IMG/VR virus record: IMGVR_UViG_3300044707_000788
Span: 1-34,763 of that record
Reading direction: 5' to 3' (one strand)
DNA: 34,763 nt
Source: a virus
In this document: piece by piece, positions 4,965-24,833 of the stretch
How the letters are laid out: the number at the start of each line of letters is the position of its first letter
How positions within the stretch are numbered: position 1 is the first letter of the stretch
The notes under the pieces: generated by a model
Seen by the model: the letters and a program-made list of their open reading frames with translations, nothing else
Told to the model about the DNA's origin: nothing
Database searches by the model: none
Translations under genes and position numbers: made by a program

Positions 4965-5312
4965 TTATGTTGTTGGGTTGGTACTAAGGAAATCGGATCG
5001 GCGGACAAGTGTGAGAAAGTCTTGGCCGCGCAGCGTGACCAGCCACTCCTCGCCGTTGCGCTTGTGGGCGACGACTGGGAAGAGCTTGGCCTTGGCATCG
5101 CGGATGGCTTGGGCCATCCAGTCGCGGATCTTCACGACCTGGCAGAACTTTACCTCAAAGTGGAAGTCGGGCAGGCACGGGCAGACGACATCGGGCGAGT
5201 CGCCGAGGCCGCTGAACTGCTGACCGCGGCGGATGCCGGAGTCGCCGAAGGCTTCGCGCAACTCGTCTCTCCACATGCGTTCTCCGCGGGCGCCTTTGGC
5301 TCGACTATTCAT
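4965..5312 (-). CDS. Holliday-junction-resolvase-like PD-(D/E)XK nuclease
   Basis: The chosen ATG at 5312, which overlaps the end of dnaB by 8 bp, yields 115 residues beginning MNSRAKGARGERMW. The core fits Hjc/VRR-type resolvases: an N-terminal glutamate in GARGER (E11), RRGQQFSGLGDSPDVV with D41, and FHFEVKF with E53 and K55. Such enzymes cut branched DNA or nick junctions during phage replication and packaging. A longer frame extends upstream inside dnaB but looks non-coding there. The family is clear; the exact substrate is inferred. Confidence 0.8.
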   Translation of the reverse strand: MNSRAKGARGERMWRDELREAFGDSGIRRGQQFSGLGDSPDVVCPCLPDFHFEVKFCQVVKIRDWMAQAIRDAKAKLFPVVAHKRNGEEWLVTLRGQDFLTLVRRSDFLSTNPTT

Positions 5313-6687
5313 TGATCGCCTCCCAGAGTTGTTTGTCCGGCGCGTAGACCGAGCCATCGCTGTCGCTGGTGCGTCCCGCGGGTGCGGTGCCTTCAAAGCG
5401 GGTGAGCGAGGGACGCCATGTAAGGTTGAGCGTGCCGGTGCGGCCGGCGCGGTGTTTGGCAACGATCAGCTCGGCGTCTTGCACTTCCGGTTCCTCGTCT
5501 TGCACGGCGTAATACGCGGGACGGTGGATCAGGCAAACGATGTCGCTGTCCTGCTCGATGCTGCCGGACTCGCGGAGGTCGCTAAGTTTTGGGCGGTTGT
5601 CGCTGCGGTTTTCGGCTTGGCGGTTGACTTGGGCGGCGGCGACAACCGGGATGCCGAGTTCCATCGACATGGCCTTCAGCCCGCGGGAGACAAAGCCGAC
5701 TTCGTTCTCGCGGGACTGCGCGCCGGAATGGCTGACGAGCTGCAGGTAATCAACGAAGATGCACTTGACGCCCCAGCGGCGGACGGCGAGACGGGCGCGG
5801 CCGCGGATGTCGAGGAGCGTGAGGCCGCCACGATCGTCTACATAGAGGGGTTCTGTGGAAAATTGCGTGGCGGCGTCGAAGATGCGGTGCTTGATGCTGG
5901 CGGTGAGGAAGCCGTTCCGAATGATCTCAGTGTTGGTCTCGGCGCGGCCGAGGACTACGCGCGCGGCGAGTTCGTTCGCGGGCATTTCGAGGGAGAAGTA
6001 AACGACCGGCACTCCGCGGCGGGCCATGTTGTCGGCCATGTTGAGCATCAGTGCGGACTTACCCATGGCGGGGCGACCGGCAACGATGGTGAGCTGTCCT
6101 CCGCGGAGACCGCCGGTGACCTGGTCGAAGTCGCGGATGCCGGTCTGCAGTCCGAGTTTCCGGCCGCCAGACATGAGCGCTTCTAGTTCGTCGAGGAGTC
6201 CGGGGACGATGGCGCTCGGCGCGCGCATGGAGTCGGTGGCGGTGGTCAGCGAAAGGCTCAAGACCGCTTCGCCGGACTGCTGGAGGACGGCGTCGGCATC
6301 GGTGGCCAAGTCCTGCGCGGCGGCTTGCATGGCAACCGAGGCGTCGATGATGCGGCGGCGAGCATGGAGATCTCGAAGGGTTTGCGCGTGATATTCAACG
6401 CCCGCGGGACCGCCGGCAGACTGCGAAAGAAACTCGGTGATGGCGCCGGCGCCGCCAACGAAGTTCAGCTTGTGCTTCGCGTCGATCCGCTGCGTGGTGG
6501 CGATAAGGTTCGGCGTGCCGCCCTCGCTGCGGATTTCGGTGATGGTCTCAAAGACCAGCCGGTGCGCGGGTGTGAAGAAAAGATCGGCGTGAAGACCGGC
6601 GACTTCGTCAACGAGGCGCGGGTCGGCGAGCAGACTGCCGAGGACGGCTTGCTCGACTGCTGGCGATTGGGGCACAGTGCGTTTCAT
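5305..6687 (-). CDS. dnaB: Replicative DNA helicase DnaB
   Basis: At 460 residues this is a full-length DnaB. The N-terminal domain (1 to about 105) contains SPAVEQAVLGSLL, and the RecA-like ATPase domain holds Walker A GRPAMGKS (204-211), the YFSLEM motif near 230-235, Walker B with CIFVDYLQL (D313), the AAQVNRQAE segment, and LRESGSIEQDSD of motif H4. It unwinds the phage fork as a hexameric ring, probably loaded by the initiator-like protein encoded at 8531-9364. The ATG overlaps the upstream small ORF as ATGA. Confidence 0.96.
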   Translation of the reverse strand: MKRTVPQSPAVEQAVLGSLLADPRLVDEVAGLHADLFFTPAHRLVFETITEIRSEGGTPNLIATTQRIDAKHKLNFVGGAGAITEFLSQSAGGPAGVEYHAQTLRDLHARRRIIDASVAMQAAAQDLATDADAVLQQSGEAVLSLSLTTATDSMRAPSAIVPGLLDELEALMSGGRKLGLQTGIRDFDQVTGGLRGGQLTIVAGRPAMGKSALMLNMADNMARRGVPVVYFSLEMPANELAARVVLGRAETNTEIIRNGFLTASIKHRIFDAATQFSTEPLYVDDRGGLTLLDIRGRARLAVRRWGVKCIFVDYLQLVSHSGAQSRENEVGFVSRGLKAMSMELGIPVVAAAQVNRQAENRSDNRPKLSDLRESGSIEQDSDIVCLIHRPAYYAVQDEEPEVQDAELIVAKHRAGRTGTLNLTWRPSLTRFEGTAPAGRTSDSDGSVYAPDKQLWEAINE

Positions 6688-6785
6688 GAGAATCTCCCTT
6701 CGTCGTCGTCATCGCTCATCACTATGACAATGAAGATCAGCGCGCACATCAGCAGGCTGAAGAGCGTGAGTTCGCTGACGCTCAT
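6684..6785 (-). CDS. 33-residue single-span membrane peptide
   Basis: A GGAGG stands about ten bases before the ATG at 6785, and the stop overlaps the dnaB start as ATGA. The product has one hydrophobic stretch (LTLFSLLMCALIFIVIVMS) followed by a DDDDEGRF tail. It overlaps the end of the 72-residue gene in another frame by 77 bp. The ribosome-binding site and clean transmembrane profile make it likely that this microprotein is expressed; function unknown. Confidence 0.5.
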   Translation of the reverse strand: MSVSELTLFSLLMCALIFIVIVMSDDDDEGRFS

Positions 6786-6927
6786 TTTCTTTCTTCCTCC
6801 GGGCGAGCTGCGCGCGGCGCCGCTCCCAGCGGTCGCAGGCGGCATCGACTAAGCGAAATGATTCTTCGAGCCATGGCGTGATGTGGTGTTCGGGCGGTGG
6901 TGGCGGCTGGTATTCGTGGTTAGCCAT
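6709..6927 (-). CDS. Hypothetical protein, proline-rich N-terminus
   Basis: The 72-residue product begins MANHEYQPPPPPEHH, followed by a helical, strongly basic stretch (ACDRWERRRAQLARRKKENERQR). Its last 25 codons overlap the 33-residue membrane peptide in another frame, so the C-terminal part may be constrained by that gene. It is the first gene downstream of the 6962-6987 repeat array and may be the promoter-proximal gene of a helicase-containing transcript. No family recognised. Confidence 0.6.
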   Translation of the reverse strand: MANHEYQPPPPPEHHITPWLEESFRLVDAACDRWERRRAQLARRKKENERQRTHALQPADVRADLHCHSDER

Positions 6928-6961
6928 GACTGGTGACTACTTTCTGTCGTGGCGTGTTCTG

Positions 6962-6987
6962 TAGGCATATGTTGGCAAATGTAGGCA
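6962..6987. promoter_or_regulatory. Operator-like array: three 10-bp phased (T/A)GGCA repeats
   Basis: TAGGCA at 6962, TTGGCA at 6972 and TAGGCA at 6982 lie exactly 10 bp apart in the only non-coding gap of this part of the operon. On the minus strand they read TGCCTA/TGCCAA, the same unit and spacing as the array before 14426. A weak TTGATT -35-like hexamer (minus strand, 6992-6997) lies at the upstream end, so the array would sit across a promoter for the genes starting at 6927 and including dnaB. Binding protein unknown; the RHH regulator at 14069 is the first candidate. Confidence 0.6.
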
Positions 6988-6993
6988 TGGGAA

Positions 6994-7254
6994 TCAAGGG
7001 TTTTTTGGGCGGATGGGCCATTTTTTTAGGTGGCGAAAATCGCGGGGTTCGGTGACCGAGGTGACCTCGCCGCAGACGCCGCAGGTGTCTTGGTGCCAAG
7101 TCGAGACGTGGCCCTTGGGCATGCCGCGGCCGTGGGCTTGGCCGCAGGGGCGGCAGATCCAGTCGGGGTAGGGCGGCGCAAAGATGGTTTCGTAGTTGCG
7201 CCGGTAGCGGTCGCCGTTGACCGGCCGCGGGCTGTCGCCTTTGCCGGCGCTCAT
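6994..7254 (-). CDS. Phage zinc-ribbon-like protein (MSAGKGDSPRPV type)
   Basis: The ATG at 7254 gives 86 residues beginning MSAGKGDSPRPVNGDRYRRNY, a start I recognise from a widespread family of small phage proteins. Two CxxC pairs (CRPCGQ and CGVCGE) with intervening histidines suggest a zinc ribbon. The start overlaps the stop of the upstream gene by a few bases. The frame extends further upstream but there it only shadows the 69-residue gene. Role unknown; a structural zinc site and nucleic-acid contact are plausible. Confidence 0.75.
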   Translation of the reverse strand: MSAGKGDSPRPVNGDRYRRNYETIFAPPYPDWICRPCGQAHGRGMPKGHVSTWHQDTCGVCGEVTSVTEPRDFRHLKKWPIRPKNP

Positions 7255-13727: not shown

Positions 13728-13753
13728 AAGGCAAACCTTGGCATTACTTGGCA
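13728..13753. promoter_or_regulatory. Operator-like array: 10-bp phased TTGGCA repeats downstream of the excisionase-like gene
   Basis: AAGGCA at 13728, TTGGCA at 13738 and TTGGCA at 13748 are each 10 bp apart. They span the end of the excisionase-like gene and the short gap before the membrane-protein gene at 13723. The unit and spacing match the arrays on both sides of the RHH gene. The array could control readthrough or a promoter for the operon toward dcm; the last repeat also encodes the C-terminal VAK of the upstream gene. Confidence 0.55.
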
Positions 13754-13938
13754 ACGTGGTTAAAAGTTCGCTGCGCCATGAATTTCTCCACCGCTTGGCG
13801 CGAGATGCGCGTGCCCTTGTGCGGGCCGATGTTGAAAGCCGGAAGCTCTCCGCTCTTGATCCACGCGCGCACGGCGCGTTCGCCGACGCCCATTCCGCGG
13901 GCAACTTGTTTCACAGTCAGTGCAAGGTGGGCATGCAT
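13744..13938 (-). CDS. Excisionase-like helix-turn-helix protein
   Basis: The chosen ATG at 13938 gives 64 residues beginning MHAHLALTVKQVARGMG; the frame is open to 13977 but that part is repeat DNA. The core fits the MerR-like excisionase (HTH_17) family: LTVKQVARGMGVGERAVRAWIKSGELPAFNIG-HKGTRISRQAVEKFM (split here to show the recognition helix VGERAVRAWI and the wing with GTRIS). Excisionases bind direct repeats and direct integrase toward excision. It is divergent from the RHH gene across the 13944-14055 array, so it may be a lytic-side switch gene. A transcription regulator is the alternative. Confidence 0.75.
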   Translation of the reverse strand: MHAHLALTVKQVARGMGVGERAVRAWIKSGELPAFNIGPHKGTRISRQAVEKFMAQRTFNHVAK

Positions 13939-13943
13939 TACTG

Positions 13944-14055
13944 GGCCAAAGAATGCCAAAGACTGCCAATAGCGCAAGAATTATTTTTGGCATTCCTTGG
14001 CGTGGGGTGAAAACCCTATTTGACATCCCTTGGCATCCGTTGGAGTCTATTGGCA
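13944..14055. promoter_or_regulatory. Divergent control region with 10-bp phased TTGGCA arrays
   Basis: Between the excisionase-like gene and the RHH gene lie three groups, each at exact 10-bp spacing: GGCCAA/TGCCAA/TGCCAA at 13944, 13954 and 13964; TTGGCA/TTGGCG at 13987 and 13997; and TTGACA/TTGGCA/TTGGAG/TTGGCA at 14020, 14030, 14040 and 14050. The first group faces the opposite way to the other two. TTGACA at 14020-14025 is also a perfect -35 hexamer for the RHH gene, but its -10 is poor. The layout resembles a genetic switch whose regulator binds one DNA face at every helical turn. Confidence 0.75.
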
Positions 14056-14068
14056 CACGCCAGCACCT

Positions 14069-14326
14069 ATGAGCACCAAGAAAGCCAGATACAAAGAGGA
14101 CACCCGCAAGGGCGTCTTCGCCAACCTCAGCACCGACCTGCATGACCGCATGCACCGGCGGGCCGCAGCCGCAGACCACAAGGCTGCCAAGTATGTCGCC
14201 GTGGCGCTTGAGTTTTACATGGATCTCGAAGACGCCTTCGGAGGCCCGCTCACTGAGCAGTTCCGGGCGATGATCTTGAGGAATGTCGGCGGCATGGCTG
14301 ACAAGATGGAAAAAGCGCTCAAGTAA
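14069..14326 (+). CDS. Ribbon-helix-helix DNA-binding regulator
   Basis: The ATG at 14069 gives 85 residues. After a basic arm (STKKARYKEDTRKG), VFANLSTDLHDRMHRRAAAADHKAAKYVAVALEFYM (split: strand VFANLS, helix 1 DLHDRMHRRAAA, helix 2 AKYVAVALEFYM) matches the ribbon-helix-helix fold of Arc/CopG repressors. RHH dimers insert the strand into the major groove and bind cooperatively to tandem repeats, which suits the 10-bp arrays on both sides of this gene. No CI-like repressor is seen elsewhere, so this is the best candidate lysogeny regulator. No ribosome-binding site is visible. Confidence 0.75.
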   Translation: MSTKKARYKEDTRKGVFANLSTDLHDRMHRRAAAADHKAAKYVAVALEFYMDLEDAFGGPLTEQFRAMILRNVGGMADKMEKALK

Positions 14327-14370
14327 GCGGCCCTCCAAGAACGAGTAACAGCTATTTTTCAAATAATGCG

Positions 14371-14413
14371 TTGACAGTGCCAACAGATGCTAAAGACTGC
14401 CAACAGATTCCAA
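14371..14413. promoter_or_regulatory. Promoter-operator: TTGACA plus four 10-bp phased TGCCAA repeats
   Basis: TTGACA (14371-14376) is followed by TGCCAA at 14378, TGCTAA at 14388, TGCCAA at 14398 and TTCCAA at 14408, exactly 10 bp apart, ending 13 bases before the ATG of the small gene at 14426. The hexamer is the reverse complement of the one upstream of the RHH gene, so this array faces the other way. A convincing -10 cannot be picked. It would control the plus-strand genes 14426-15421 separately from the RHH gene. Confidence 0.65.
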
Positions 14414-15154: not shown

Positions 15155-15421
15155 ATGATTCCGATGACCAAGCGAGTGTCCCGCAAGCGGCTTGAGGCAG
15201 CGTGGTTTGCGCTGGGTCCGCCAGACTATGTGCAGCCAGACAAAACGCAGCGTTTGTTTTGGGCCATTTGGAATGACCCGCCGTATCCCAATCACTTAGA
15301 CTTTGAGACCTACGAAGAATACGCCGCAGCCATAAGGGAGTGTGAGCGAAACGTGGTAAGGCTTTATTCTGATCCAGACGAAGAGTCCCAGACGGACGCA
15401 ACATCCACCTCGCGGTCGTAG
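15155..15421 (+). CDS. Hypothetical acidic protein, overlaps integrase end
   Basis: An ATG at 15155 gives 88 residues beginning MIPMTKRVSRKRLEAAWF; the frame is open to 15119 without a better start. The middle has aromatic residues (LFWAIWNDPPYPNHLDFETYEEYAAAI) and the C-terminus is acidic. Its last 58 bases overlap the 3' end of the integrase gene on the opposite strand. That convergent overlap leaves no room for a terminator between the two transcripts. Function unknown. Confidence 0.55.
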   Translation: MIPMTKRVSRKRLEAAWFALGPPDYVQPDKTQRLFWAIWNDPPYPNHLDFETYEEYAAAIRECERNVVRLYSDPDEESQTDATSTSRS

Positions 15422-16476
15422 ACAGCGTAAAATCTGGCCGTTGTCTGCGGGCTTGCGTGGCCGAGCATGTGCTGCACTACGCTGATCTTTCCGGTGGCGT
15501 TGAGCATGTCGGAGCCAGCTTGGCGGCGCAGCTCGTAAGCTGCCGAGCGCCGGTCTGGCAGGAACTCGCGCACCCAGAGGTTAAAGTTGCGCTCCATGAA
15601 TTTCATTCGCATGCCGGCGGTGCGACCGACAACCATGAAGTCGTCCGCGGCGAGCAACTCTGGCACCATCCATTGCGGCAGCGCCATGACCCGCCCGCGC
15701 TTGTGGCCAGTCTTGAGCGTCAGCTCCTCGTTGGGCCGCTCAATGAGCACCATGACGTGCCGGTCGCCGCGGTCTTCGATCCAGCCCTTGCGGCAGTAGG
15801 CGACCTCCTTGGGCGTCATGCCCAGGTAGCGGGTCAGCAGGAAGGCGCGCCGGGTGGCGCCGCCGATGGCCTTGCTGCTGGCGTCCATCTTTTCCAGCGT
15901 CTCCGGCGGGATACGGATAAAGGTTGAGACCGGCGCCTTCATGCCCTTGGTTGCCGCGGCAAACTTGGCGATGGAGTCCGGCAGCTCAAAGCCCTCCCAG
16001 TCTAAGGGATGGGCGAAGATGGCCCGCGCCGACGCCAAGTTGGTGCGCACGCTGTAGGCGCTGCCTTGAAACTTGGCGCGATACTTGGAGACCAGTGCTG
16101 GCGAGATGACCGAGAGCGGCTTGGCCCGCACAGCGTCATTGTCGCCGCCGAGTGCGGTGCGCAGGACGATGAGGAGGCAATTGACATTGGCGTTGCGGCT
16201 GGCGATTTTGCTGCCCTGCAAATAATGATTGATAGCCTTGCCAACCGGGAGCGCCGTGGCGCGCATAGCGTGGTCCTTGAGAGCGGTCACGCCTTTGGTC
16301 GCCGTGTCATTGAGGATCGCCTTGGCTTTCACCTTGGCCAGCTCGAGGCTCTCGGTGCCAAGCGAGACCCGCTGCCGCTTGCGGATGCCTGGGTTGTAGA
16401 ACTTCAGCTGCCAGCGCGGCGAGGCCGCAGTGGTGTAAAGACGGCCAGAGATGCCGCTGCTTTTGATGGCGTGCAT
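15364..16476 (-). CDS. int: Tyrosine integrase
   Basis: The 370-residue protein has an N-terminal arm-type domain, a core-binding domain (about 75-170) and a catalytic domain (about 190-355). Catalytic residues visible are the beta-hairpin lysine in TGHKRG (K259), ELRR (R317 of box II), HMLGH (H336 and H340) and the nucleophile in ARFYAVYD (most likely Y350). Box I reads LGMTPKEV (218-225) where the family has G-L-R-x-x-E, so the first catalytic arginine appears replaced by T221. It starts 15 bases from the attP arm repeats. Site-specific integration at a tRNA-Thr gene is the likely role; the box I change could lower activity or be balanced by a nearby arginine. Confidence 0.92.
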   Translation of the reverse strand: MHAIKSSGISGRLYTTAASPRWQLKFYNPGIRKRQRVSLGTESLELAKVKAKAILNDTATKGVTALKDHAMRATALPVGKAINHYLQGSKIASRNANVNCLLIVLRTALGGDNDAVRAKPLSVISPALVSKYRAKFQGSAYSVRTNLASARAIFAHPLDWEGFELPDSIAKFAAATKGMKAPVSTFIRIPPETLEKMDASSKAIGGATRRAFLLTRYLGMTPKEVAYCRKGWIEDRGDRHVMVLIERPNEELTLKTGHKRGRVMALPQWMVPELLAADDFMVVGRTAGMRMKFMERNFNLWVREFLPDRRSAAYELRRQAGSDMLNATGKISVVQHMLGHASPQTTARFYAVYDREVDVASVWDSSSGSE

Positions 16477-16491
16477 GCCGACCGTTCGCAG

Positions 16492-16709
16492 AGTTTGGCA
16501 GTGGCGTCAAATAGTTTGGCAAAAGTTTGGCCGATTCTTTGGCAAAAAGATGGGTATCTGTTAGACGTTGTTGGACGCTGTCAGCACCGCCCGTCAGAAG
16601 AATTTGATAGTTCGCCGGCATAGCACAGCGGTAGTGCACCTGATTTGTAAAGAGCTGCCCAGCCCTGTATTCATGCGGGTCTCCAGCCACTTTGGCCGAT
16701 AGTTTGGCA
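16492..16709. other. attP: Phage attachment site (attP) with arm-type repeats
   Basis: The region between integrase and the HNH promoter contains AGTTTGGC(A/C) repeats at 16492, 16513 and 16524 plus TCTTTGGCA at 16536 on one side, and ACTTTGGCC at 16689 plus AGTTTGGCA at 16701 on the other, all in the same direction. Weaker TTAGAC/TTGGAC/TCAGCA copies with 10-bp spacing are at 16561, 16571 and 16581. Between the arms lies a tRNA-derived core (16614-16650). This arm-core-arm order is the standard lambda-type attP plan. The arm motif overlaps in sequence with the TTGGCA operators elsewhere, so excisionase or RHH binding is an alternative to integrase binding. Confidence 0.8.
16614..16650 (+). 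other. 5' half of a tRNA-Thr(TGT) gene, probable att core
   Basis: The 37 bases match a tRNA 5' half: acceptor strand GCCGGCA, TA, D-arm GCAC-AGCGGTA-GTGC, A, anticodon stem CCTGA and loop TTTGTAA (anticodon TGT, threonine). The match ends at the loop's last base. The following bases (AGAGC) cannot pair with CCTGA, and no T-arm or TGCCGGC acceptor complement follows, so it is not a functional tRNA. The D-stem is fully paired, suggesting recent origin from an intact gene. As an attP core it implies crossover in the 5' half, with the phage supplying a new 5' half and upstream region. Confidence 0.8.
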
Positions 16710-16738
16710 TTGACAAACGCCTCTCAATCCGTCATAAT
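16710..16738 (+). promoter_or_regulatory. Sigma70-type promoter for the HNH gene
   Basis: TTGACA (16710-16715), a 17-base spacer, then CATAAT (16733-16738) is a near-perfect sigma70 promoter. The predicted start of transcription is near 16745, five bases before the ATG at 16750, so the mRNA would be almost leaderless. TTGGCC (16692) and TTGGCA (16704) lie just upstream of the -35, so binding of the repeat-recognising protein could repress it or integrase occupancy could affect it. Confidence 0.75.
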
Positions 16739-17436: not shown

Positions 17437-20400
17437 TTATTTGTTACGCTTTGGCGCAACAAGTTTTTCTGGGAAAAATATCTGAAACGTCACCTCGCCG
17501 CCGTCTTCCAGCCGCAAGCCGTCATATCCTTGAGCGATAAGCTGGTCGGTCGAAAACTTATCTGTCTCATTCCAACCTCCTAGCTTGAGCTTCTTTTCAT
17601 CCAGCAATCGCTCCACGATAGCGCCCTTGCCCGTAGCTGCAACATTGCCCGACTCAATCGAGCTTTTGTCCGTTGTAAACCAAATGGTGCCATCTGCTGC
17701 GCTACTTACGTCAAAACCGGCCTTTGCTATTACCTTAGCCGCCTGCGCGCTTGTGCCGTGGTATATGCGAGTCATCTGCGAGGATGCTACTGTGTCTCTG
17801 CTGCTTACGCCACCATCCGGCATCGCCTGCCCACGCCTCTGCAACGCCCGCTGCAACTGCGGATCTTCCTGCCGTACGCCACGGCGCTCCAGCTCTGCGC
17901 TGATCGCCTCGTTGCGCCGGAGCAGCTCGCGGGTCTGTGCGGCGCCGCCACGCACCGGACGGCCCTCACGCATGCCCAAGGTGGACAGCCCGAGGTAGCC
18001 TTGGTTCTCCTCGTATTGGCGCAGGAGTTGGTCGGTGGGAGCGGACTCAAGGGAGTCCGGCATGGCCTGGGCGCGGATTCCTCGCTCAACCACAAGCTGC
18101 TCGCCCCTCTCTATTGCAGTATTTCGCAGCTCTGACAATTGTGCCTGCGTGATGTTTTTACCATCAGCATACAACTTGCCGGACTCCCTTGCGTTTAGGC
18201 GAACAAATCCTAAGTCCATATAGTCAGCAGTGCTGATGGGAAATTTTCTTCCTTCCAAAATGCCCGCATGACCATGCGCGCCGACATTCAAGAACTTTCC
18301 GTCTGGCGTCATCCATGCGGTTTGCGTTGTCATGCGCGGCTGTGCTCCTCCTAGCCGCATAACAGCGTCTTCAATGATCTGCCCGCGCGCCCCCACATCC
18401 GGCATCCCCTGAGCCTCCCGCGGGATCTGCTGGGGCATGCGGTTGTTGTTGATCTTGTCGTAGTCGAAGGAAAGCCCCTCGCGGCCGGTCGGCGTGAGGT
18501 CGTTGTAGCGGTCGAGGCGGAAGCTGCGCACGCTGCCGCGCGGGTTGAGGTCGCTGAATAGCGGGTTGGCCTTGCGCTGCACGGCGGTGCCGGTGCCGAT
18601 CAAGCCGTTGAGCATGTCCCGCTTGGCTTGTCCGATACCGGCCTCACCCGGCAGTCCGTTGCGATGGTTGCCGAGGTAGGTTCTGAGGTCCGCCTCAATC
18701 ACCTGCATATCATTGTTAAAGATCCCCAGCTCGCCGTTGTTGATCGCCTTCATGGCAGACGCGCGGAAGGCGTTAAGATCCATGAGCACCGTCTTGAGGT
18801 GCTTGTTGCCCGTCAGCTCCCAGCCCACGAACGCCACCTCGCGCTGGATCGCCCGGATGTCGCCTCGGTTGCGGACGCGGTAAACGCCGTCCTTGCCGTC
18901 GCCGATGGCGTTGTAGTCGGCGATGAACGTCATGCCGCGCTCGCGGCTGGCCTCAAGCACTCGGGCAAATTCTCGCATCCATTTGGGGAAGTGGACGAAG
19001 TGGTCGAACTGAGCTGGCAGTGTGGGGCCGCTGACAATCGTGCGCCCAGAGTCTGTCGTGCGCCGACCGAACTCCGTTGAGTTGGGAGCCAAGATGCGCG
19101 ACGGGTTGTACATCGTGTTGGCTTGGGACGTGCGGGAGCGTTCGCGGGTGCGCACCTCGCCAGGACTGCGCCATTGCGTCTTGCCGGTCTCGTCCACATA
19201 CAGAAACTCGTTGCCAACTTGGCCGCCCTTGTCCGGGTCTGGGCGCATCTTGGTGTGTGGCGAGCGGGCCGCGCTGTCAGGCGTGCCATCGACAGACACC
19301 TTGGTGCCGCGGGTCTCCCGCTTGCCGGCGTCCTCTAGTCCGGCCAGCAAATCATTGTAGGCGCGCACATGCTCGATCATCCGCTTGCGCAGCACCGGCG
19401 ACTGGAAGAGCGGGTTGTCGCGGAACAGCACCGAAGGGTTGTCCAGCGGCTTGCCGGTCGTGCGGTCGAACTTGGCGCCCAGCACCTCCAGCACGCGCGC
19501 CGAGGTAGCCAGAGCGCTCTCCAGCACCTTGGGTCCGCCTGCGCGGATGCCGCGGAAGTCGATGCCCTTCGCCTCACCGGCAAACTGCTCGGCTGTTACC
19601 TCGTCCCTTGCCCAGTCGTAATCATTGCCGCCCCTTTCGCGGCTGCGCTGGTTGTATTCATCGATGCGGGCGTCGATCAGCGCATCGCGCTCGGCAGCCT
19701 CCACCGGCTTGCCTTTCATCACGTCCGACATGGTGCGCTTGCCGCTGCGCACGTCGGCAATCTCTTCCGGCGTCAGCGCTACGGCCCCTTCATGCGTGCC
19801 GAACATGATGTCGCCGTCAACGATCTGCGCCATGTATTCGCGCCCGCGCGCCTTGATACCGTCCTCGCCGTAGACCTGCGTGACGTAGTTGCGCATGTCA
19901 GTGCGGATGTCTCCGTCAAGGATGTCGCTGGTCAGGATTGCGTGGGCAATTTCGTGCGGCATCGAGCGGCTCGGCGGCATGTAGTCCACGACCTGCTGAC
20001 CGGCCTTGACCGTGTCGCCGTCATTGACCAGCAGTCGCCGTCCCTTGGGTGCAGCGATAAATTCCGTGCGGCCATCATTCCCGCGGACACGCACCTCGCG
20101 GACGCCATCGCCGCGGTCACGGACGCGCACCTTGCCATCCATTGAGGCTGGCTCGCCGACATTGATGAAGATACGCGCCGTGCCGTTGCTGGCCTTCTCG
20201 ATGAACACACCAGCGCCGGTCTCGTTGCCCGTGGCCCGCACGTCCACATTCGCGCGGTAGTCTGAGGCGCGTAGAGTCACAAAGTCTGTCTTGCCAGCCA
20301 CCACGCCCTGCATCCCGGCGATCTGGCCGAGGCGGTCGCGCCCAAGGGAAATCAGAGCAGGCACATCGCCGTTCACCGCATGCACGTCGATCAGCATTCT

Positions 20401-22059
20401 GGCGATGTCGGCATCTTTGCGAGAGCTGCTACGCCCGAATGCACCGGCAAATGGTCCCGCAAAGGTGCCGAGCGTTGCGGCGCCACCAACAATGGCCCCC
20501 GCTTGCTCTGCGTCCGGCGCCAGCAAGGCGAACGGCGTAGACGCCAGCGTGGCCGCAATACCAGAAGACACGGCGTCATCCGCAAAGCGCACCGCCTGCG
20601 TCACGCCCGCGCCGTCAGCCAGTCGCGCCAGCTTCCGCGTGATCTCCGGGTTGTCGGGGTTTTTGGCCACACGGCCCAGCGTGCTTTCCACGCCATTGGC
20701 GTAGGGTCGCATGTAGGCGGCGTATTGTGGCGGCACGGTGCCGGTGCGCAGCAAATCATCAGCCGCCGCCTGACGCACGGCACCAATATTGCCGGCGCGC
20801 ATCTCGCGCAGCACCATGGCGCCAGTGCCAGCGGCTTGGGAGGTCTTGCGGATCGTCCCGCCGACCAGCTTGTAGGCTGGCACAATACCGCTTACCGCTG
20901 CGACCGGCAGCAGCACGCTGTCCATGCCATCCGTATTGGCCGCCAGCAGACCTGCGCCGCCGCTGACCGCAGCAAGCGAGGCCACCTGTTGCGTTTTGCT
21001 AAGTCCCGTCTTGTCGGTAACGCGCGCAGCGACCCTAGACCCAAAGTCTTCCATGCCGTCCGCAACTCCAGCCAAGCCGCGCTCAACTGCCGGTAACGGC
21101 ATTCCAGTCACTCGAGACAGGCGGCGCAGCACGCGCAGCTTGGAGAATATGCCGGCGCCCATTGGCAGTGCGTTGGTAATATCTAGGCCCATTGCCCCAA
21201 TCGTTGACACCGCCTGCATGGGCTGCTGCCCCAAGACCGTTGTCTGCTCGTTGGGGAAGGTCATTGTCTTCCCGCCCATCGTGGCCTCAGTAATGTTGCC
21301 AGCGTGCGAGCGGGCGTAGCTGTTCTGCTGCAGATAGCGCTCGTAGTCCTGCTCCTTATCCGGGCCGAACGGCGTCTCCTCAAACACACCCTCGTCGCGC
21401 GCCTTGGCGATGGCCGCCATCACGTTGTCGCCATCGACTCTTTCGTTGCCAGTCTTGGGAACTGCGGCGGCGATTTCGCGCATCTTGGCGTCATTGGCGT
21501 TGCCGCGCTGGATGGTGTCGGCGACTTTGTTTTGCCCCCAATTAACAAGCTGCAGCAACTGCACGCCAGCCTTGCGGCCAATCTCCATGCCAGTGGCTAG
21601 GTTACGCGCCGCAAAACGATCTGGGCGGAACATGTTTTCAAACCAGTTTTCGCGCAGCTCTGTGCCGGCATCCATGCCGAGACTTAGGAGGTTGCCCGGG
21701 ACATCCTCGGCGCCTTGAAAGAATCGCGCCACCGCATCATCCTGCTGCTGCCGGTGATCGTACAAGAGCGAGTGCTCCGTATTGGTCAGAATGCGCTGCG
21801 GGTCGCGGCTGGCGACCTCGAGGTCTTGGTAGAACTGCTGCTCTTCCTGCTCCGAGATAGGCTGCGCCGTTGCCGGATCAAACGGCTCATCCAGAGTCGC
21901 CGTCTTCCAGTCAAACTCCGTGTCGATATTGACCGGACCCTGCGTTGGGGCTGGCATTGACCGCTGGCCAAATGTGGTAGCGGTCAGAGTCGCGGAGGGT
22001 TTGTCCTCCTCAACCGGCTGCGCTGTCGTCCAATCGAAATCGGGGTCGGCTTGGGCCAT
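17437..22059 (-). CDS. Giant internal-virion-like protein with HExxH and ADP-ribosyltransferase-like domains
   Basis: At 1540 residues this is the largest and last late gene. Visible parts are: a disordered acidic N-terminus (1-90) with a repeated DFDWTTA/EFDWKTA motif; helical regions with hydrophobic, membrane-seeking stretches near 355-420 and 505-560 (AGAIVGGAATLGTFAGPFAGAFG, split from its neighbours); HEIAHAIL at 702-709, an HExxH metallopeptidase signature; long polar regions; and a C-terminal YHGT (1433-1436) domain with WFTTD and EVTFQIF segments, typical of ADP-ribosyltransferase folds in phage polyvalent proteins. Size and position match T7 gp16-like ejection proteins. Injection with the DNA and action on host proteins is inferred. 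Confidence 0.75.
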   Translation of the reverse strand: MAQADPDFDWTTAQPVEEDKPSATLTATTFGQRSMPAPTQGPVNIDTEFDWKTATLDEPFDPATAQPISEQEEQQFYQDLEVASRDPQRILTNTEHSLLYDHRQQQDDAVARFFQGAEDVPGNLLSLGMDAGTELRENWFENMFRPDRFAARNLATGMEIGRKAGVQLLQLVNWGQNKVADTIQRGNANDAKMREIAAAVPKTGNERVDGDNVMAAIAKARDEGVFEETPFGPDKEQDYERYLQQNSYARSHAGNITEATMGGKTMTFPNEQTTVLGQQPMQAVSTIGAMGLDITNALPMGAGIFSKLRVLRRLSRVTGMPLPAVERGLAGVADGMEDFGSRVAARVTDKTGLSKTQQVASLAAVSGGAGLLAANTDGMDSVLLPVAAVSGIVPAYKLVGGTIRKTSQAAGTGAMVLREMRAGNIGAVRQAAADDLLRTGTVPPQYAAYMRPYANGVESTLGRVAKNPDNPEITRKLARLADGAGVTQAVRFADDAVSSGIAATLASTPFALLAPDAEQAGAIVGGAATLGTFAGPFAGAFGRSSSRKDADIARMLIDVHAVNGDVPALISLGRDRLGQIAGMQGVVAGKTDFVTLRASDYRANVDVRATGNETGAGVFIEKASNGTARIFINVGEPASMDGKVRVRDRGDGVREVRVRGNDGRTEFIAAPKGRRLLVNDGDTVKAGQQVVDYMPPSRSMPHEIAHAILTSDILDGDIRTDMRNYVTQVYGEDGIKARGREYMAQIVDGDIMFGTHEGAVALTPEEIADVRSGKRTMSDVMKGKPVEAAERDALIDARIDEYNQRSRERGGNDYDWARDEVTAEQFAGEAKGIDFRGIRAGGPKVLESALATSARVLEVLGAKFDRTTGKPLDNPSVLFRDNPLFQSPVLRKRMIEHVRAYNDLLAGLEDAGKRETRGTKVSVDGTPDSAARSPHTKMRPDPDKGGQVGNEFLYVDETGKTQWRSPGEVRTRERSRTSQANTMYNPSRILAPNSTEFGRRTTDSGRTIVSGPTLPAQFDHFVHFPKWMREFARVLEASRERGMTFIADYNAIGDGKDGVYRVRNRGDIRAIQREVAFVGWELTGNKHLKTVLMDLNAFRASAMKAINNGELGIFNNDMQVIEADLRTYLGNHRNGLPGEAGIGQAKRDMLNGLIGTGTAVQRKANPLFSDLNPRGSVRSFRLDRYNDLTPTGREGLSFDYDKINNNRMPQQIPREAQGMPDVGARGQIIEDAVMRLGGAQPRMTTQTAWMTPDGKFLNVGAHGHAGILEGRKFPISTADYMDLGFVRLNARESGKLYADGKNITQAQLSELRNTAIERGEQLVVERGIRAQAMPDSLESAPTDQLLRQYEENQGYLGLSTLGMREGRPVRGGAAQTRELLRRNEAISAELERRGVRQEDPQLQRALQRRGQAMPDGGVSSRDTVASSQMTRIYHGTSAQAAKVIAKAGFDVSSAADGTIWFTTDKSSIESGNVAATGKGAIVERLLDEKKLKLGGWNETDKFSTDQLIAQGYDGLRLEDGGEVTFQIFFPEKLVAPKRNK

Positions 22060-23712: not shown

Positions 23713-24003
23713 TTATTCCTCCGAGATTCCCGCCGCAGCCCGTGCCTCAAGGCACAGTTGTGATCCCGCCACAAACGCGCGGCAGGCGTTTGGTCGGTTG
23801 TTGTAAATTGAGCAAGAGACGCCGCATCCGACTTCGCCGGCCAGCGCCACGCAGCGGTTGTTGGTCGTCTTCATCAAAGGGTAGTCGTCTCTAAGCATCC
23901 ATTGCGGGATGCCAGCAGCGTCAGATCGGTCTCGTTGTAAGACTGGCCAGCTCCACTTGTGACTGCAGCATGCGCCACACCGTTGACAGTCGAATCGCTC
24001 CAT
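23713..24003 (-). CDS. CxxCxxCC (YkgJ-like) metal-binding protein
   Basis: The ATG at 24003 gives 96 residues with CQRCGACC at 6-13, then further cysteines in NRCVALAGEVGCGVSCSIYNNRPNACRAF (split here for the pattern C...C..C-x-I-Y-x-x-R-P-x-x-C-R-x-F). This is the PF03692 YkgJ-type signature, thought to bind zinc or an Fe-S cluster. Its first 130 bases overlap the PAPS-reductase-like gene in another frame; since the CxxCxxCC block lies in the overlap, the start cannot be moved downstream. The molecular role is unknown; an electron-transfer or metal partner of the neighbour is possible. Confidence 0.75.
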   Translation of the reverse strand: MERFDCQRCGACCSHKWSWPVLQRDRSDAAGIPQWMLRDDYPLMKTTNNRCVALAGEVGCGVSCSIYNNRPNACRAFVAGSQLCLEARAAAGISEE

Positions 24004-24833
24004 GTCGGGCGGAAGCCCTGCGCGTCGCTCTGCAGGTCGATGTATGGTGCTAGATGGCTGATGTTGTTCGTCTCGCATTGATTCTTTGGGCAATAGACGG
24101 TGCCTCCGAGGTGCCGGTTCACGCAGTTCCAGCAGACAGGGTAGTAGTCGCTGTTCGCGCTCTTGTCCTTCCGGTGGCGCCACACGCCGTCCGCTTTCTC
24201 GTAGCGGGTTTCGTCGTTGGGCACGCCTTCGGCTTCCAAGTAATTCCACACGTCCGCATCGCTCCAGTGGCGCATGGGGTAAAATTGAGTCGGAATGCCG
24301 GCCTGCACCAAAACGTCCTGCGCAAGCGGCACATGGCCTTTGATGAGGTCCACATCGGCAGACTTTTGGCCGTGGAAGGCGGCATCCCACGGGAAGTTAA
24401 ACGTGCCGGTCGGGCGCTTCAGAGCGTCCAGCCCGCACAGATAGCGTCCGCTGGCCAGCTCCTCCGGCTGCGGTTCTTCAGTGCCAAGGCAGAGTGACAT
24501 GACCTTGTTCGGCGCCATTTCGTAAAACTTTACAAAGTCAAAACGCGGGCTGCCGGTTTCGATGTCGTGTCCATCGGTGAGGGCGTATCCGCTTGGAGCG
24601 TAGTCATACATCTCTAGGTCCCATTGCGCCGCCAGCCGGTCGCTGTGGACATACCGAGTGCGGAACCGCGGTTCCCGCCACTGCACAACCGGCGTCTTGG
24701 CGCCGACCTTAAAGCGGATCATGTGCAGCATTGCTGTGCTGTCCTTGCCGCCACTCCAAAAAACGACAGGGTTGGTGCAGCCGTCCAGCCACAGCTCAAC
24801 CTTACGACACGTCTCTGCGACTAGGTTTGTCAT
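23874..24833 (-). CDS. PAPS-reductase-family PP-loop protein
   Basis: The 319-residue protein has the adenine-nucleotide-alpha-hydrolase PP-loop SGGKDSTAMLHM (about 27-38), VVQWREPRF, and a C-terminal part with VCWNCVNRHLGGTVYCPKNQC, a Cys cluster that may bind zinc or Fe-S. Phage members of this family are annotated as phosphoadenosine phosphosulfate reductases, but many probably act in other sulfur or adenylation chemistry, such as DNA or tRNA modification. It sits inside the virion gene block, coupled to an internal-virion-like gene by ATGA and overlapping the CxxCxxCC gene. Substrate unknown. Confidence 0.8.
   Translation of the reverse strand: MTNLVAETCRKVELWLDGCTNPVVFWSGGKDSTAMLHMIRFKVGAKTPVVQWREPRFRTRYVHSDRLAAQWDLEMYDYAPSGYALTDGHDIETGSPRFDFVKFYEMAPNKVMSLCLGTEEPQPEELASGRYLCGLDALKRPTGTFNFPWDAAFHGQKSADVDLIKGHVPLAQDVLVQAGIPTQFYPMRHWSDADVWNYLEAEGVPNDETRYEKADGVWRHRKDKSANSDYYPVCWNCVNRHLGGTVYCPKNQCETNNISHLAPYIDLQSDAQGFRPTWSDSTVNGVAHAAVTSGAGQSYNETDLTLLASRNGCLETTTL

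Follow-up and report, generated by a model that had tools for sequence, protein, structure and literature searches.

The window (the whole 34,763-nucleotide stretch of viral DNA analysed here) carries a gene at 14069-14326 whose product is probably a repressor of the ribbon-helix-helix (RHH) type, belonging to a new family in temperate phages and predicted to act through 10-bp units laid over at least four promoters, including that of the dnaB operon. Comparison of sequences indicates that this regulon is real and well supported, and a role for it as a switch is probable. The gene and the features around it are:

14069-14326, plus strand: gene for the RHH-type regulator, 85 aa, with the predicted DNA-contact strand R13-K-G-V-F-A-N-L20
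14020-14055, plus strand: predicted operator/promoter of the RHH gene, with a putative -35 (TTGACA, 14020-14025), a putative -10 (GAGTCT, 14043-14048) and units at 14030, 14040 and 14050
13987-14002, plus strand: middle block of two units (TTGGCATTCCTTGGCG) between the divergent promoters, with conservation limited to close relatives of the window
13944-13977, minus strand: predicted operator/promoter of the divergent HTH gene, with units at 13964, 13954 and 13944, a putative -35 (TTGCGC, 13977-13972) and a putative -10 (CATTCT, 13955-13950)
13744-13938, minus strand: excisionase-like HTH_17 gene, type A (Pfam HTH_17, PF12728, E=5.6e-13; PHROG excisionase matches)
13738-13753, plus strand: extra two-unit array that precedes the next leftward gene; in HTH-B relatives the corresponding array precedes HTH-B
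14371-14413, minus strand: predicted operator of Pdown, the promoter that follows the RHH gene, with units at 14378, 14388, 14398 and 14408 lying over a putative -35 (TTGACA, 14371-14376, read rightwards)

The earlier note on this DNA had listed 13 TTGGCA-like units around the RHH gene, and all of them lie where it placed them. Seven are exact copies of TTGGCA on one strand or the other (13954, 13964, 13987, 14030, 14050, 14378 and 14398), five depart from it by one base (13944, 13997, 14020, 14388 and 14408), and the unit at 14040 (TTGGAG) is two bases off. The note had also placed all units at multiples of one helical turn from each other. This holds inside the blocks, where the spacing is exactly 10 bp, and fails between them, since the steps from 13964 to 13987 and from 13997 to 14020 are both 23 bp; the strand orientation of the units likewise flips between blocks. 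To its list we add two arrays, one at 13738/13748 and the other at 6960-6989 in the promoter region of the dnaB operon, 7 kb away. Where the array core changes, the site at 14020 (TTGACA) keeps the form TTGAC[A/T]; on this ground we rejected it as an array unit and read it, with better reason, as a -35 element. Beside the 13738 array, the window seems to retain nothing of an HTH-B-like gene except its beginning (the MTPHHT... ORF).

The bare TTGGCA hexamer is mildly enriched (41 copies versus 24.8+/-5.5 expected); what is improbable is the ordered arrays and not the hexamer count. Across 18 non-redundant loci, identical 5-mers recurred 151 times at a lag of 10, compared with 4.6 expected, and 95 and 55 times at lags of 20 and 30 (about 4 expected for each), with counts of 7 and 4 at the off-period lags of 9 and 11. 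A position weight matrix spanning four units scored 45.6 at 14376 and 41.3 at 14018, while the highest score in shuffled sequence was 7.9+/-3.8; this matrix was trained on the same window arrays, and the independent evidence is the conservation in relatives.

Searches found the RHH family in IMG/VR contigs, and close relatives retain arrays on both sides of the RHH gene at the same places. Relatives that keep the RHH gene and lose the repeats, which the earlier note had named as evidence against its reading, did not appear among the IMG/VR relatives: the repeats were kept and the reading was not refuted. Among the matches listed in a scan of the collection for three-unit TTGGCA arrays was L116, on which a distant relative of the RHH gene is encoded. 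Alignments of the RHH protein and the integrase identified no host or integrated prophage among GTDB genomes, and searches with both in a phage collection gave no match.

The arrays coincide with putative promoter elements. At the RHH promoter and at Pdown, units occupy the spacer and also cover the -10 and the start. The RHH promoter pattern TTGAC[A/T]-N17-NANNNT was present in 16 of 19 sequences (the 18 non-redundant loci and the window) versus 0.1 expected, and the Pdown pattern TTGNNN-N16/17-TANNNT in 13 of 19 versus 0.7 expected; the window's own copy, a weak match (AAGACT), is not one of those 13. In the window itself the putative -10 elements are weak, and none of these inferred promoters was called when the region was put through a simple scan for sigma-70 sites. 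In L009, L010 and L013, the last array unit beyond the RHH gene includes an ATG (ATGCCAACA) with which the following gene apparently begins, an overlap of operator and apparent start codon. The distant array stands before the replication genes:

6960-6997, minus strand: predicted distant operator of the dnaB operon, with units TGTAGGCATA TGTTGGCAAA TGTAGGCATG (6960-6989) and a putative -35 (TTGATT, 6997-6992)
6709-6927, minus strand: first small ORF downstream of this operator; the dnaB-containing operon begins at 6927
5305-6687, minus strand: DnaB-type replicative helicase (DnaB_C, E=4.1e-84)

The dnaB operator was present in 10/10 contigs scanned, and in 14 more its core switches with the RHH class. 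Predicted operators over early and replication promoters, together with one over the regulator's own promoter, are what a CI-like role calls for. Because units overlap putative -35 or -10 elements at all four promoters (RHH, HTH, downstream and dnaB), the best reading would be autorepression combined with repression of early and replication genes, and the covering of regions contacted by RNA polymerase argues for repression by occlusion.

We infer an RHH fold for the 14069-14326 product, on good grounds, because distant members of the family show strands like SVTISL and KVTVSL at the RHH position and because one of them, L252, matches Pfam HicB (PF05534) above the cut-off (E=5.7e-5). A second distant member, L258, falls just below that cut-off, and the alignment shows an alternating strand followed by a helix-rich region. 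The window protein has no Pfam or PHROG match, and the weak family matches are to the antitoxin-type RHH domains HicB and FitA. Profile searches of the PDB returned weak matches, none convincing, one of which was the RHH protein ORF56 (E=0.63). Two AlphaFold2 runs, with alignments of 12 and 13 sequences, reached a pLDDT of about 60; the strand was missing in the first model, neither model was usable, and a Foldseek search with the second gave no match.

Very probably it is this RHH protein that binds the arrays, because the array core tracks its strand and not the divergent HTH protein. A V-[F/Y]-A-N strand goes with TTGGCA arrays in 35/35 contigs and a V-T-x-S or V-H-A-N strand with (C)GGACA arrays in 21/21 (L257, SVTISL, and L239, SVHANL, have GGACA arrays), so that in 56/56 contigs of these four clear classes the operator core follows the strand class, the comparative pattern expected if the strand sets specificity. 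Two odd contigs, L370 (RATVTL; TGTCCAT-like arrays) and L378 (GIYLNL; a TTGGC pair), were classed by eye. The dnaB operator behaves alike, and in 24/24 cases its core is the one that goes with the RHH class of that phage: it is of the TGCC[T/A]A type in ten VFAN/VYAN phages and L379, and of the TGTCCG/TGTCCA/GGACA type in 13 phages whose strand is VTxS, VHAN or RATVTL. Since the VHAN strand retains N19 yet goes with GGACA arrays, position 17 is indicated, and we predict that changing F17 to H or T would shift binding from TTGGCA to GGACA arrays. The correlation between residue 17 and the operator rests on few independent events, the array class having changed once on the RHH tree. The suggestion that an RHH-type protein is the array-binding regulator, made in the earlier note, thus gains comparative support.

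The divergent gene was described there as excisionase-like, and the Pfam match confirms it as an HTH_17 gene. It exists in two mutually exclusive forms, A and B, one per phage (L147-L180). Contigs with TTGGCA arrays carry HTH-A in 11 cases and HTH-B in 24, which argues that the HTH protein does not set the core. A contig with HTH-B and the RATVTL RHH protein (L380, the same contig as L370) has TGTCCAT arrays, with three units at its dnaB promoter; HTH-B therefore occurs with both array classes. On the integrase tree we count two changes of HTH type and on the RHH tree five, as would be expected of a small winged-HTH excisionase or recombination directionality factor (RDF) co-inherited with its integrase. 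Because it follows the integrase tree more closely, the HTH gene appears to travel with the integrase, like an Xis gene, and the promoter arrays with the RHH gene, and the HTH_17 protein is probably the Xis/RDF partner of the nearby tyrosine integrase. The integrase and its presumptive site are:

15364-16476, minus strand: tyrosine integrase, a context gene (PF00589 over cut-off)
16480-16720, no strand: attP-like region (context), with a stretch resembling tRNA-Thr, copies of the Int arm-type motif TTTGGC(A/C) and, at 16549-16578, a weak 10-bp array

Together these two support a temperate module; ARAGORN called no tRNA in the attP-like region. The 10-bp array at attP lies between the tRNA-like core and int in the window, and is also found upstream of int in L252, L257, L258, L265, L279 and L289. 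Its core is GTCC or TGCC in HTH-A phages and TTTGATCTGG in several HTH-B phages, a difference that suggests Xis sites. In HTH-A phages the attP array resembles the promoter arrays, and HTH-A and the RHH protein may therefore share or compete for sites.

This resemblance bears on whether HTH_17 instead of the RHH protein binds the promoter arrays, in the manner of Cox or Apl, or whether the two compete like Cro and CI. Either is rather improbable. In HTH-A phages the attP array (TGCC or GTCC core) does look like the one at the promoters of that phage, and the recognition region of HTH-A is likewise different from one array class to the other, which makes site sharing in these phages conceivable. 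However, promoter arrays remain TTGGCA under either HTH type, HTH-B pairs with both TTGGCA and TGTCCAT promoter arrays, several HTH-B phages have the different attP core given above, and the HTH type tracks the integrase tree more than the RHH tree. Nor does the HTH protein hold up as co-owner of the promoter arrays, a part that the earlier note had left open to it, since it has been exchanged between phages without a change in those arrays.

The attP-like core is also flanked by the TTTGGC(A/C) copies (16494-16545 and 16690-16709), whose motif changes with the integrase clade (GCCAAA, GGCACA, GCCAGA). They look like integrase arm-type sites, and because they vary with the integrase clade we rejected them as part of the promoter arrays. 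Their likeness to Int arm sites is what speaks for taking the promoter-array repeats themselves as arm-type sites or as chance or compositional features, an explanation to which we give next to no credence. For the promoter arrays it is refuted by an exact 10-bp periodicity far above shuffles, by conservation in relatives and by a core that tracks the RHH protein, whereas the arm-like repeats at attP vary with the Int clade instead.

Between the RHH gene and int lies a stretch of about 1.1-3.5 kb in L147-L180, with int in either orientation, that looks like a variable accessory-gene slot under Pdown control. Elsewhere in the window are homologues of QueC and QueD/PTPS (832-1446 and 1448-1936, both on the minus strand), suggesting 7-deazaguanine modification of the phage DNA, a 1540-aa ORF with no PHROG match (17437-22059, minus strand) and a protein with weak similarity to a PAPS-reductase domain (23874-24833, minus strand).

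The earlier note had seen no CI-like repressor in the window, and a wider search agrees: HTH_3/CI-type proteins were absent from 33 records and S24 LexA/CI-type peptidases (Peptidase_S24) from 15, so neither family feature of CI/LexA-type repressors was found. We propose that RHH dimers instead fill two to four tandem 10-bp units cooperatively, one per helical turn (with the TTGGCA/TGCCAA core in this phage). At four or more promoters the stacked units would cover the spacer, the -10 and the start: those of the RHH gene itself, of the divergent HTH gene and the early leftward genes, of the variable genes downstream and, 7 kb away, of the dnaB replication operon. Arrays occupied in this way would exclude RNA polymerase, so that the RHH protein would limit its own level and hold off early and replication genes, maintaining lysogeny and immunity. 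High levels would give a silent prophage and low levels early gene expression, replication and excision through the HTH/Xis protein. Repression as opposed to activation, occlusion, cooperativity and the part played in lysogeny are all inferred, and a lysis-lysogeny role for this RHH switch is plausible.

The RHH protein could alternatively be an accessory regulator, antitoxin-like or devoted to the downstream variable genes, with another, unrecognised protein keeping lysogeny. Pdown does precede variable genes between the RHH gene and int, many small early proteins lack an assigned function, and the family's weak matches are of the antitoxin type. We nevertheless consider this unlikely, as the same operators stand at the dnaB operon and the early leftward promoter in all phages examined, no conserved toxin gene was seen adjoining the RHH gene, and the searches for HTH_3 and S24 proteins, in 33 and 15 records, revealed no CI-type candidate. 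Moreover, the RHH and HTH genes occur together in the Int loci that have either of them, four truncated loci aside.

Returning to the RHH protein as the main repressor, we are evenly divided on a broader proposal: that a temperate-phage lineage runs its whole immunity and early switch on an RHH protein and 10-bp arrays; that two or more operator groups (TTGGCA and GGACA) have arisen within it through changes at contact residue 17 (F/Y versus H/T), with separated operators changing in concert; and that HTH forms A and B are exchanged with the integrase, so that immunity and recombination modules reassort. The family would then be a natural repressor/operator series in which a predicted contact residue and dispersed operators changed together, and two immunity groups are predicted among uncultivated phages. 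These data suggest that lysogeny regulators can be overlooked if only CI-like helix-turn-helix proteins are sought; 10-bp arrays offer a DNA signature for finding such switches.

Phages are known to encode RHH repressors, namely Arc and Mnt of P22, of which Mnt helps maintain lysogeny. These differ in controlling an antirepressor region beside a classical C2 repressor, from operators that are not known to form 10-bp tandem arrays across early promoters. In phages of the P2 Cox/Apl type, a small HTH excisionase gene comes first in the early operon, divergent from the repressor gene; here, by contrast, the exchangeable HTH protein does not appear to set the promoter array sequence, and the RHH protein does. 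Reg of p576, from the clade II plasmids of the pLS20 family, is a predicted RHH repressor whose operators flank several promoters, including its own (PMC8708921), but it governs establishment genes of a conjugative plasmid and no phage switch (PMC8708921).

In the ParR/parC systems of R1 and pB171, RHH dimers stacked along the DNA bind 10-11-bp direct repeats near a promoter and regulate their own synthesis (PMC9426499, PMC5016525). Because ParR proteins are RHH proteins that act on direct repeats flanking a promoter and are autoregulated (PMC9426499, PMC5016525), the phage protein might be ParR-like and its arrays the centromeres of a plasmid-like prophage. We find this very unlikely. A parC site is a centromere for partition with the ParM motor, whereas the phage has several separate small arrays dispersed over promoters, including the distant dnaB promoter, along with a tyrosine integrase and an attP-like region. 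No ParM/StbA (PF06406) match was found in 15 records, a weak negative, as the family was also missed in control genomes.

The F55 protein of SSV1 is an RHH repressor of lysogeny in an archaeal virus that acts on tandem repeats (ATAGATAGAGT) (PMC5569661). As we predict for the phage protein, a small RHH dimer binds tandem repeats that overlap the promoters of early genes and of its own gene (PMC5569661), and F55 maintains lysogeny in an integrating virus (PMC5569661), the role for which we propose the phage RHH protein as counterpart. It differs in belonging to an archaeal fusellovirus with BRE/TATA promoters and two tandem repeats per site, where the phage has two to four units in a strict 10-bp period; we show no sequence kinship between the two. 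In a limited open-access literature we found no bacteriophage described with an RHH protein as its main repressor. Given F55 (PMC5569661) and ParR/parC (PMC9426499), the earlier note's description of a new type of phage switch was too strong. By analogy, SSV1 F55 is the closest known system in logic and ParR/parC the closest in repeat geometry.
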